Origin: Desulfosporosinus youngiae DSM 17734
GTDB lineage: Bacteria; Bacillota; Desulfitobacteriia; Desulfitobacteriales; Desulfitobacteriaceae
Reading direction: 5' to 3'
Assembly: GCF_000244895.1 (NCBI RefSeq)
Contig: NZ_CM001441.1
Coordinates: forward strand, 4,740,198-4,804,197
Length of the DNA: 64,000 bases
Below are positions 32,787 through 46,110 of this stretch, one piece after another. Below the pieces are notes generated by a model. That model was not told the origin of the DNA. It did no database searches and worked only from the letters and a program-made list of their open reading frames with translations. Each line of letters begins with the position of its first letter. The stretch's first letter is position 1. A program made the translations under genes and the position numbers.

Positions 32787-32832
32787 AAAAAAGGACAGAG
32801 AAAGTACATTGCGCACTTTCTCTGTCCTTTAA
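32787..32832 (-). terminator. Terminator of the glycine-riboswitch expression platform
   Basis: Strong stem AAAGGACAGAGAAAGT with ACTTTCTCTGTCCTTT across a 9-base loop, followed by T residues. Immediately downstream of the second glycine aptamer. Confidence 0.88.
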
Positions 32833-32998
32833 CCTGAGAGATTCACTGTTTCCAGCTTCCCCTTTGGTGTTCTCTTTTAAAGAAACTCTCCAGAGTCCCG
32901 TCTTCTAGCAGTACATTTGCCTGAGAGCTTCCCTCCTTGAAAGAGCGATTTCAAGGAATTTCTCCTTCGGCGCCTGACGAATCAGATCTCTCCCGCTA
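32831..32998 (-). ncRNA. Tandem glycine riboswitch upstream of gcvT
   Basis: Two aptamers are visible on the minus strand. The first (32911-32998) has GCGGGAGAG, GCGCCGAAGGAG and the closing GCTCTCAGGC. The second (32831-32897) has GACGGGACTCTGGAGAG, ACACCAAAGGGG and ATCTCTCAGG. This is the usual paired arrangement, followed by a terminator hairpin. Glycine binding is expected to allow read-through so that the cleavage system is made when glycine is abundant. Confidence 0.93.
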
Positions 32999-33031
32999 GT
33001 GTCATTCGGATTTAACTATTAACTTATCATA

Positions 33032-33060
33032 ATAATATGCTAATTCCATCAAAATGTCTA
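33032..33060 (-). promoter_or_regulatory. Promoter of the glycine riboswitch / gcv operon
   Basis: TAGACA (33055-33060, overlapping the ileS stop codon), a 17-bp spacer and TATTAT (33032-33037), just before the first aptamer. Confidence 0.7.
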
Positions 33061-35835
33061 CTGGTTTTTTCTCTCTGATAGAACCGTACTGCAGCGTGGG
33101 CAAATTGTCGGATGCTCTTCATCCTTACCAACTTCCTCATGGAACATCCAGCAGCGTTCACATTTTTCCCCTTTAGCCGGCAGTACGAGAATCCCTAAAC
33201 CCTCGTGCCCTTCCGCAGGCTGTACACCCTCAGGCCTTTTTTCCCGGGGTCCGTGCACAGTCAAGTTGGAAACGATAAAGACTTCTGCAAGGTTGGGAAC
33301 CTTTTGCAAGAACTCAAACTGATCTTCCGTAGGATAAAGATCCACTTGGGCGGTCAAGGGATGATTAATTAATTTTTCCTGACGAGCTTTTTCTAAGACT
33401 TTAGAAACATCCGCCCGCAGCTCTAAGATCTGATCCCAAAGAACAGCAATCTCCTCATTCATCCACTCCGGATTCACCTTGGGCATTTCTGCCATTTGGA
33501 CATTTTCCGTGGTCTTTTCACCCGGTATATACGGCCAGATTTCTTCAGTCATGAACGACAAGATCGGAGCTAAGAGACGGACCAGGGCGTCCAGAACCTC
33601 GTATAAGACCGTTTGGGCAGAGCGGCGAAGGAGGGATGTTTTTCCTTCAACATAAAGTCTGTCCTTAGCAATATCCAGATAAACAGCACTTAATTCAATG
33701 GTACAGAAATTATGAATGGTATGATAAGCCCAATGGAATTCATAACTCTCATATCCAAGCAGAACCCGTTCAACGACTTTAGATAGCTTAAGCAAAGCCC
33801 AGCGATCAATTTCCTGAAGTTCTTGATAACTCACCTTATCTTTGGCCGGATCGAAATCATTGAGGTTACTTAGCAGGAAACGCATGGTATTACGAATTTT
33901 ACGATAGGCTTCAGACATTTGCTTCATAATACGCGGAGAAGCAGCAACATCATTTTTATAATCCACGGAACTTACCCAGAGCCGCAGAATGTCCGCACCT
34001 AATTCCTGAACAACCTTAAGAGGATCGACTCCATTGCCCAGAGATTTTGACATCTTGCGACCTTGCTCATCAACGACGAAACCATGAGTAAGCACATTTC
34101 GATAAGGTGCTTGACCAAAAGCAGCAACTGAAGTTGATAACGATGAATTGAACCAGCCACGGTGCTGATCTGACCCTTCCAGGTAGAGATCCGCTGGCCA
34201 GGCAAGCTCAGCCCGCTGCTTTAAGACGCCGGCATGGCTCGTTCCGGAATCAAACCAAACGTCCATAATATCCGTCTCCTTGCGGAATTTCGTACCGCCG
34301 CACTCACAAGCGGTTCCTTCAGGCAGCAATTCCGCAGGCGAATGGGCAAACCAAGCATCTGACCCTTCTTGACGGAAAAAGTCCTGAACCTTTGCTATGG
34401 TTTGGTCGTTCACCAACACATTTCCGCAATCTTCACAATAGAAAATAGGAATAGGAACCCCCCAAGTCCTTTGTCGGGAAATACACCAGTCTCCTCGATC
34501 TGCGATCATGTTAAAGATCCGGTCTCTTCCCCAGGCAGGAATCCAGCGAACCTTCTCAATCTCATCCAAGGCCGCTTGACGAAAGCCATCAATGGAAGCA
34601 AACCATTGTTCAGTTGCCCGGAAGATAATCGGGCTCTTGCAGCGCCAACAATGAGGATAACTATGTTTGATCGTTTCTTCAAGAACAAGATCTCCGGTGC
34701 CCTTAAGATCTTCTACGATCACAGGATTCGCCTTTTCTGTCTTAAGTCCGGCATAGGCCCCACCTTCTGACGTGAACTTTCCTCGATGATCAACCGGGCA
34801 TAAGACGGGCAGCCCATATTGCTTACCAACTAAGAAGTCATCTTCCCCGTGGGCCGGTGCGGTGTGAACACAGCCTGTACCCGCTTCTAAGGTGACATGT
34901 TCTCCGCAGATGACCATGGAGTCACGATCCATGAGCGGATTTTTGCATAAGACTCCTTCAAGTTCCTTACCAGTGAGAGTCCTCTCAACCGGCAGTTCCA
35001 ATTGCCATAAAGATCGTAAAGAATCCAGCATTCCCTCAGCAACCACCCAGTGTTCTTGCTGAGCACTGACCACAGCATAAGTCAACTCAGGATGTACACT
35101 GATCGCCAAGTTTGCGGGCAAGGTCCAAGGAGTCGTCGTCCAAATAACGACAAATGTATTTTCTTCGGTAAGGACACTCAACCCATTGCGTACTGCAAAT
35201 TTAACGTAAATCGCTGTAGCGGGTTTATCTGCGTATTCTATTTCAGCCTCAGCCAGTGCCGTCTCACAAGAAGGGCACCAGTAGACAGGTTTTAACCCCT
35301 TATAAATATAACCTTTCTTGGTCATATCCCCAAAAACTCCGATTTGAGCGGCCTCGTACTCTTTTTGCAGCGTCAGATAAGGATGGTCCCAATCCCCGCG
35401 CACTCCAAGCCGCTTAAATTCCTCACGTTGAATCCCGACATATTTCTCAGCATAATCTTTACATTTCTGCCGAAATTCCAGAGCCGAGACCGCATGACGG
35501 TTGACTCCTAATTTCTTAATAACTTGTTGCTCAATAGGAAGCCCATGGGTATCCCATCCCGGCACATAAGGCGCATCAAAACCCATCATGGTTTTGTATT
35601 TGACAATGATATCTTTCAAGACTTTATTGATGGCATGCCCAAGATGAATATCTCCGTTCGCATAGGGCGGACCATCATGAAGGATAAATTTAGGTCGTCC
35701 TTCCCGGGCTTTCTGTACTTTTTCATAAAGCTTTTCTTCTTCCCAAGCTTTGAGGATTTCAGGTTCCTTTTTAGGAAGATTTCCTCGCATCGGGAAATCA
35801 GTTTCAGGTAGGTTTAATGTATCGCGATAATCCAT
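33058..35835 (-). CDS. ileS: Isoleucyl-tRNA synthetase
   Basis: Class I synthetase, 925 residues. The HIGH motif is present as [15 protein letters not shown], the KMSKS motif as [11 protein letters not shown], and a C-terminal zinc finger has CERCW...CPRC. The CP1 editing domain lies between, with [13 protein letters not shown]. The zinc finger and bacterial-type N-terminus indicate the type 1 enzyme. AAAGGAGG precedes the ATG. Controlled by the upstream T-box; a 180-bp inverted-repeat element lies between the T-box terminator and the start. Confidence 0.97.
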
Positions 35836-35885
35836 TAATTGTTTTCCTCCTTTAAGATTTTAAGACTTAAGACTCCTTCGGGTCG

Positions 35886-36065
35886 GGCAGCTTCTCGCAC
35901 ATCCGTTCACTCAGCACTCCGAGCCTCGCCCACGCGCTTTCGGGGGAGCTTCGCCAAACCTCCGGGTAATACCTGAAGTGAACCCGTGGCTACGCTTCCC
36001 ACGAAAGCTTTGTGCGCCTTACCGCCTCTACGTACGATGAGTTCACTCCTGTGCGAGAAGCTGCC
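35886..36065. repeat. Inverted-repeat element between the T-box terminator and ileS
   Basis: Outer arms at 35886-35913 and 36038-36065 are inverted copies of each other: 16 outermost bases match perfectly (GGCAGCTTCTCGCACA) and the inner parts match partly. The roughly 120-bp interior is GC richer than the neighbouring leader and contains a smaller hairpin (CGTGG..CCACG). No ORF. It could be a MITE-like or REP-like insertion, or an RNA structure in the ileS leader. Confidence 0.7.
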
Positions 36066-36103
36066 TTCCTTTGAGGTCTTTTAATTTTTCAAGATAGTAT
36101 AAC

Positions 36104-36320
36104 TAAAAAACCCCACCCCTAAAAAGGGGCGAGATTATCACTCACGGTACCACCCTTGTCGCCATATAGCCACTCGGAAGTCTTTTAACGGAGACAAACC
36201 GAACAAAGCTTACTAAAATTCAGCGTTTCACTCCAAGGGGATTCTCTTTGTCGTTTCTCACGGGCTCACACCATACCCCGCTCGCTGTTGAGCTTATCTG
36301 ACAAAGACTGTCCTTTTCAA
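36104..36320 (-). ncRNA. T-box leader of ileS
   Basis: The T-box sequence AAGGGTGGTACCGTGAG (core 36146-36154) is followed by an intrinsic terminator CTCGCCCC-TTTTTA-GGGGTGGG-TTTTTT (36104-36133). Upstream is a stem-I-like region with GGTATGGTGTGAGCCCG, and GAGAATCCCCTTGGAG in the specifier-loop position. There ATC (36242-36240) reads as an isoleucine specifier, which matches ileS. Uncharged tRNA-Ile should promote read-through. The exact 5' end was not determined. Confidence 0.92.
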
Positions 36321-36395
36321 CGTGTCTATACATATTAATAGTATTAAACGTATTATTGGTATCAGTGCTATAAACTATACAATCAGTATCAATTA

Positions 36396-45384: not shown

Positions 45385-46110
45385 TTATTCCAATCGACAA
45401 AATTCTTTGCGTAATCTGCGAATAATTCGCTTTTCGAGCCGAGAGATATAGGACTGTGAGATCCCTAGCCGATCGGCGACTTCTTTTTGAGTCTTCTCTA
45501 CCCCATCGTCCAAACCAAACCTCAATTCCATGATAATCTTTTCTCGATTCGTGAGCCTTCCCATAGCCAAATGCAACAGTTGCCGATCTACCTGTTCCTC
45601 TATGGGCTTTGAGATAATATCATTCTCCGTGCCCAAAACATCTGATAAAAGTAATTCATTCCCATCCCAATCAATATTTAACGGTTCATCAAAGGAAACT
45701 TCTGAGCGAGTTTTGTTATTGCGTCTAAGATACATCAAAATTTCATTTTCAATGCATCGCGAAGCATAGGTTGCCAACTTAATTTTCTTCTGAGGATCAA
45801 AGGTATTAACCGCTTTAATTAATCCAATAGTACCTATGGAAACTAGGTCTTCAATCCCGATCCCTGTATTCTCGAATTTTCGTGCTATATAGACTACAAG
45901 CCGGAGATTACGTTCAATCAAAATATCCCTTATTGAACTGTCTCCCATTTCTAAGCGTTCTAAAAGAACTCCTTCTTCATCCGAGTTAAGTGGCGGCGGT
46001 AAAGCTTCACTGCTTCCAACATAATAAATTCCACTAACTCCAAAGATTTTTTGAACAAAAATAACCCACAAGCGTCTGACCTTACCTTGAGCATTACTCC
46101 ACCACTTCAT
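45385..46110 (-). CDS. sigE: RNA polymerase sporulation sigma factor E (pro-protein)
   Basis: Early mother-cell sigma factor, 241 residues. The N-terminal pro-sequence ([21 protein letters not shown]) precedes SSEALPPPL, the conserved region after the SpoIIGA cleavage site. Region 2 has [37 protein letters not shown] and region 4.2 has [21 protein letters not shown]. It begins directly after the spoIIGA stop, so the protease and its substrate are made together. Confidence 0.97.

Follow-up and report, generated by a model that had tools for sequence, protein, structure and literature searches.

An inverted-repeat element in the leader of ileS

Why does a 180-nt sequence with inverted ends lie between the T-box terminator and the ribosome site of ileS, and is it a part of the switch or something that arrived from elsewhere? 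In the window (the whole stretch of 64,000 nucleotides that was analysed), an initial annotation had placed such an element on the minus strand at 35886-36065, and this description proved correct. The adjoining frame at 33058-35835 (minus strand) we take to be ileS, from its naming in the initial annotation and from our own reading of the sequence. The features of the locus, in the direction of transcription, are:

36122-36329, minus strand: T-box leader of ileS (context, outside the element; Rfam RF00230, 103.9 bits)
36109-36136, minus strand: intrinsic terminator stem-loop of the T-box, then a T run (context; consensus scan)
36066-36091, minus strand: left arm (TGAAAAATTAAAAGACCTCAAAGGAA), resembling that of other copies, outer end approximate (flank alignments)
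35886-36065, minus strand: element body, 180 nt, one long imperfect hairpin (at least 40 further BLAST matches in its own genome; fold z -5.4; covariance model R1)
36050-36065, minus strand: outer stem, 5' arm, 16 nt
35947-35996, minus strand: apical core AGCGTAGCC..GGTTCAC..CAGGTATTACCC.GAGGTTTGGCGAAGCT, near-invariant over three genera (column identity)
35886-35901, minus strand: outer stem, 3' arm, 16 nt
35880-35885, minus strand: CGACCC directly 3' of the body, present in most copies listed (flank comparison)
35846-35853, minus strand: Shine-Dalgarno sequence of ileS, AAAGGAGG (context)
33058-35835, minus strand: ileS, 925 aa (context; ORF call, orthologues in relatives)

Alignment of the repeat family described below returned exactly 35886-36065 as the limits of the body. 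The inverted ends are as first described: the outermost 16 bases are inverted exactly and 23 of the 28 outer bases pair, with a 15-base arm free of mismatches at 35887-35901 (plus strand) and 36050-36064 (minus strand). The body has a GC content of 60%, and the region 35870-36085 folds at -99.6 kcal/mol (z = -5.4), with none of 200 shuffles as good.

The initial annotation had also assumed that T-box leaders normally run straight from the terminator to the ribosome site, which held only in part among the relatives. We could read the ileS leader in 20 of 22 loci, our own and 19 others (L062 was left out because its start was not found, L063 because the start was wrong). Long spacers are frequent in these relatives, whose 19 leaders have between 7 and 146 nt from the T run to GGAGG; what stands of the claim is that the spacer studied here, at 254 nt, is the longest of the 20. 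In three of the relatives' leaders (L047, L058 and L059) the spacer contains a different palindromic repeat, of the GGGCAATTCATGAATTGCCC type, and the spacer between T-box and ileS therefore appears to collect repeats.

Comparison of the ileS leaders by BLAST, which took in all 22 loci, gave a match at our own locus and found the element at none of the 21 relatives' loci (L043-L063), where the best stray hit covered 27 nt at E 0.36. The ileS copy is thus most likely an insertion and not a part of the T-box switch.

The element belongs to a dispersed repeat family

The search for further copies proposed with the first description was amply rewarded. BLAST with 35860-36090 against its own genome gave at least 41 matches including itself (40 of 112 first-look candidates scored). 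We then used R1, a covariance model made from 36 bodies of three genera with the ileS copy included, and obtained 100 matches including itself at E <= 0.001 (150 of 1,069 candidates scored). The ileS copy scores 184.6 bits with R1, being one of the 36 sequences from which the model was built. Sixty-three of the 100 matches score at least 120 bits, with lengths of 168-186 nt; a longer class of about 232-247 nt accounts for many of the others.

Within the genus Desulfosporosinus, matches were present in 20 of 29 genomes and absent from nine at E <= 1e-6; across the order they were found in 22 of 73 genomes and four of 22 genera, all within one family. R1 run over a sample of the phylum, with six candidates scored per genome, matched 10 of 398 genomes, our own included, and added two genera. 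One, g14, belongs to the same order and has a single listed match, at E about 3e-7, in each of genomes G050 and G051; the other, g24, belongs to the same class and has at least six matches listed both in G160 (best E 3.7e-10) and in G389 (best E 1.5e-14). The structure match in G051 (L268, 3183-3363, minus strand) has pilus-type genes on one side and a sigma-factor-like gene on the other, both named by eye. The several copies in the two g24 genomes (L258-L267) have a very similar core (GGTTCACATGCAGAAAAGCCCAGAGGTTTGGCGC), and one of them lies between two leucine-pathway-like genes, also named by eye. A search of a named collection with the exact core gave 49 loci, of which 47 were in Desulfosporosinus, one in Paradesulfitobacterium ferrireducens and one in a MAG labelled 'Clostridiales bacterium'. 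The plasmid search gave no match to the element and no viral contig held the exact core pattern; a plasmid or viral origin was rejected on these results.

Three other orthologous sites are filled in one Desulfosporosinus species and empty in a close one. The first is filled at L139 and empty in D. hippei (L226), with a different module at the same point in HMP52 (L225), and the element is also missing there in G006, G012 and G009. The second is filled at L138, empty in D. hippei (L234) and internally deleted in HMP52 (L235); the third is filled at L145, empty in HMP52 (L231) and truncated in D. hippei (L232). Some of these cases could partly be losses. Orthologous copies can also differ by whole modules, as in the pairs L135/L169, L140/L153 and L149/L168. 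Because of the many copies, the empty ileS loci of all 21 relatives and these three sites, we regard the sequence as a dispersed, non-autonomous repeat of mobile type, with the ileS copy as one inserted member. Of the 'MITE/REP-type insertion' first proposed, the repeat-type insertion therefore stands, on the many copies and the relatives' empty ileS loci; for a classical MITE, no consistent target duplication and no parent IS were found.

Bodies at unrelated sites are up to 98.3% identical (L025/L026), so some of the amplification must be recent. The ileS copy is 76-83% identical to the 28 other own-genome bodies with which it was compared, and it takes part in each of the three least identical pairs; it is therefore old or of an older subfamily. 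Judged by this divergence, it would not be a recent insertion of a young subfamily.

The fold is conserved across genera

Folding the family and looking for covariation, as also suggested at the outset, gave a strong signal. RNAalifold on the 36 bodies of three genera returned 50 pairs, 35 of them with two-sided compensation; 96.8% of cells pair in this structure against 33-44% in slid-partner controls, and none of 500 shuffles reached any of five covariation measures. This 36-row alignment (A2) holds 14 Desulfosporosinus bodies and 22 of 24 bodies from genera g3 and g4, L121 being left out for an insert and L134 for an altered core; in alignment A1 (40 rows), L014 and L038 are omitted as partial copies and the L023 tandem is taken from L027. 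The apical columns 74-127 have a mean identity of 0.91, compared with 0.76 elsewhere. In 11 more distant sequences, 10 from g24 and one from g14, 83.4% of cells were paired and 29 of the 50 pairs compensated in an alignment (A3) whose rows were themselves fitted to the model; four helices are less well kept there, helix 4 at 39%, helix 5 at 72%, helix 6 at 67% and helix 8 at 47%.

The non-standard cells of the 36 bodies comprise 71 G-U (143 with two fixed wobble columns), compared with 20 A-C and 37 other mismatches. This excess of G-U over A-C suggests that it is the sense strand that folds, either as RNA or as single-stranded DNA, in a count that is biased by its use of a structure predicted on the sense strand.

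Copies of the repeat are intergenic and stand in same, opposite, divergent and convergent arrangements to the flanking genes by a crude ORF call. The structure is under selection family-wide, in any orientation to its neighbours, and not as an ileS device. The initial annotation had set mobility and covarying stems against each other; the two are not mutually exclusive, and the covariation belongs to the whole repeat family.

We consider it probable that the sequence at ileS belongs to a dispersed repeat family, non-coding and non-autonomous, of which it is an old and somewhat shortened copy, and that the family is kept by trans-acting recognition of its fold. The same structural conservation, the near-invariant core and the G-U asymmetry, together with the single listed copies in G050 and G051 of a further genus, would also be expected of a functional small-RNA or cis-RNA family, in which every copy acts as an RNA (a stabiliser, a processing site or a protein-binding site) and is kept for the benefit of the host. 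We think this rather unlikely: the place at ileS is conserved in 0 of 21 relatives, copies stand in all orientations to flanking genes, and copy number is variable down to no match in nine of 29 genomes of the genus at E <= 1e-6.

Known RNA families were also considered. Rfam gave no match at the gathering threshold at the element, and with E up to 5 none in three own-genome loci or in one to two loci each of g3, g4, g14 and g24; a known Rfam family was rejected on this lack of a covariance-model match. As for the IscB/IsrB-associated (HEARO/omega) RNA, there was no RRXRR protein match, with control genomes equally silent, and no Rfam match.

Composite copies and nested modules

A complete unit, read in the sense direction, consists of a left arm (..CTGAAAAA..GACC..AAAG), the 180-nt body, CGACCC, TTTTCA and a palindrome, P (CTCTGCTGGTGCCGC..GCGGCATGG), often then followed by CTAC. 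The ileS copy resembles other copies over about 25 nt more on the upstream side of the body, as far as about 36091, and over a few bases on the downstream side; it consists of left arm, body and CGACCC, without the P that comes next in many other copies. P follows the body in g3 copies too (L122 and L130), stands on both sides of it in some copies, and in one case forms a tandem pair, P-body-P-body, at 288-nt spacing.

Smaller hairpin modules are nested in the loops of the body. In seven copies (L095-L098, L103, L114 and L162) a separate module, about 70 nt long (CGAAAGTGTCC..GGACATTTTCG..AAGCGG..CCGCT), is nested after GGTTTGGC, with an additional hairpin inside it in L097 and L103, and L099 and L100 are split in the same manner. 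A small hairpin repeat, CGAAGACACTGTCTTCGCACG..TTAGC..CTTGCA, occurs both within an internal loop of the body and at places beyond the body (L098, L103, L153, L169, and upstream of L016 and L019); it is present in L153 and missing from its orthologue L140.

Three genomes (G004, G007 and G013) have a further upstream module with a reversed copy of the apical core. In our own genome (G000), some full copies have a weak R1 match about 340 nt upstream in the opposite orientation, as at 45894(-)/46234(+), 1707326(-)/1707670(+) and 3324177(-)/3324519(+), so that head-to-head composites occur there too. Frames traverse several copies, with strand and frame varying by copy, and a 375-aa frame reaches into the L032 copy; the repeat family is taken to be non-coding. 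A 6S RNA gene was noticed near another copy of the element (L026, 456-642, minus strand).

How the repeat may spread

The size of the element, its terminal inverted repeats, intergenic location and many copies, and the filled and empty sites are all consistent with a classical MITE, that is, an internal-deletion derivative of a DNA transposon on which a transposase acts through the terminal inverted repeats. Such elements were looked for by their target duplications. The three filled and empty sites showed no consistent one, with ATGG flanking the insert at the L139 site. At ileS a 5-bp direct repeat, ATCTT, can be drawn, and is likely to be a chance match, as 90% of shuffled windows share a 5-mer. 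Rare words common to both flanks were likewise near chance over the 49 loci, and were discarded as evidence: a 7-mer in 21 of 49 true pairs versus 34% of mismatched pairs, and an 8-mer in eight of 49 versus 16%. Nor was an autonomous partner or parent IS noticed: around the 49 loci (8 kb each) none of the 25 largest clusters of neighbouring ORFs looked by eye like a mobility gene, and the widest covered eight loci. The conserved inner core and the compensated stems throughout, moreover, exceed what an end-binding transposase needs. A classical MITE is therefore an unlikely reading of the family, if one that deserves to be kept in mind.

Movement by a Y1/RAYT (TnpA-REP) transposase that acts on single-stranded palindromes, with the element as a BIME-like composite, is suggested by the P modules followed by CTAC in many copies (reversed, P has GTAG near the palindrome) and by the P-body-P-body tandem. 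A RAYT-like transposase gene is present in our own genome, and such genes are commoner in carriers of the element (15 of 22) than in non-carriers (19 of 51; Fisher 0.02, a value without correction for kinship). Against this, RAYT as the obligatory mobiliser is not supported, since at E <= 1e-15 a match was missing from seven of the 22 carriers, among which G011, G032, G033 and G035 are single-contig genomes. GTAG also stands about 5 nt off the P stem, whereas REPs are described, in the parts of PMC8266576 drawn on here, as preceded by GTAG. A bias in replication strand as for HUH elements was not seen, with 32 of 63 copies on one side; here the contig start was taken as the origin (a dnaA-like frame, named by eye) and the terminus as halfway round. 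The analysis that gave this strand count took in 97 of the 100 R1 matches, the three weakest being left out. We judge this composite scheme to be quite improbable. Insertion beside intrinsic terminators was considered as well and dismissed for want of an excess: a terminator stood upstream on the same strand in 12 of 49 loci, the other three classes counting 11, 9 and 12.

Recognition of the fold in trans is the reading that we prefer. A trans-acting factor would recognise the folded single strand, of the sense polarity and as RNA or single-stranded DNA, and would copy or move it to new sites; selection on the copies that are still mobile would then maintain the fold and the core. A more specific and very doubtful version is that of a mobile repeat born of RNA: a reverse transcriptase, or another enzyme provided in trans, would bind the folded sense RNA at the apical core and copy it into new sites between genes and into the loops of other copies of the family. 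Such a repeat would be the bacterial equivalent of SINEs and would have lasted through the class.

Relation to known repeats

A full-text literature search of an open-access library gave no paper on this repeat family among the results listed, and a term search of PMC3733652 for two genera found neither in the text covered. In kind, the repeat resembles the structured interspersed repeats: bcr elements, MITEs and REP/BIME. According to the portions of PMC3446304 used here, bcr1-bcr18 of the Bacillus cereus group are intergenic, bcr1-3 are MITE-like, and bcr10 and bcr18 are conserved in structure and transcribed in 5' UTRs. The likeness, drawn from descriptions, lies in a dispersed intergenic repeat with a conserved secondary structure (PMC3446304); our family differs in its host group, its high copy number with strong covariation in one family, its nested modules and its presence in several genera.

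Bacterial MITEs are characterised, in the sections consulted of PMC10969869, as short, non-coding, intergenic elements with terminal inverted repeats and a stable hairpin transcript, typically AT-rich. The repeat shares with them the terminal inverted repeats (16 exact, 23 of 28) and the many dispersed copies; unlike MITEs as those sections describe them (PMC10969869), it has a body of 60% GC with a conserved core inside, and neither consistent direct repeats nor a parent IS were found. REPs are given as 20-50 nt long with a tetranucleotide before the palindrome in the excerpts used of PMC8266576. A palindromic P with GTAG nearby, composite and tandem arrangements and an intergenic location recall REP/BIME, whereas here the bulk of the unit is a 180-nt rod, P stands about 5 nt away from GTAG instead of being directly preceded by it as in those excerpts (PMC8266576) and is missing from the ileS copy, and seven of 22 carriers gave no RAYT match.

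Bacterial interspersed repeats are usually regarded as short palindromes or decayed MITEs with little internal constraint. A 180-nt family with about 100 matches in one genome, 35 of 50 pairs compensated and a near-invariant core over several genera suggests instead that the folded strand is recognised, and naming the recogniser would reveal a new route by which non-coding DNA spreads or an unrecognised RNA-binding system.

Consequences for ileS

The alternative first offered to an insertion, a second RNA device in the ileS leader, was rejected on the 0 of 21 relatives' ileS loci that hold the element and on the other copies in all orientations. As a second regulatory device acting with the T-box, it has in its favour the location and a predicted 14-pair hairpin between the 3' part of the terminator with its T run and the left arm (z -2.5; three of 200 shuffles as good). 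The absence from all 21 relatives, the roughly 100 matches elsewhere and the lack of a terminator-like site within the element on the sense strand, by consensus scan, make it hardly credible. Structure and covariation beside a riboswitch need not imply regulation of that gene.

Taken as an inserted copy of the repeat family, the element is positioned after the T-box decision point and is therefore transcribed on read-through only. It would add a stable hairpin about 30 nt ahead of the ribosome site and is probably near-neutral. When the read-through leader is folded by prediction, the mean probability that the ribosome site is unpaired comes to 0.36, so that an effect of the ileS copy on ileS translation is possible according to the model. 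On the other side of the gene, directly downstream of ileS and on the same strand, the window contains tandem glycine riboswitch aptamers (32820-33005, minus strand).
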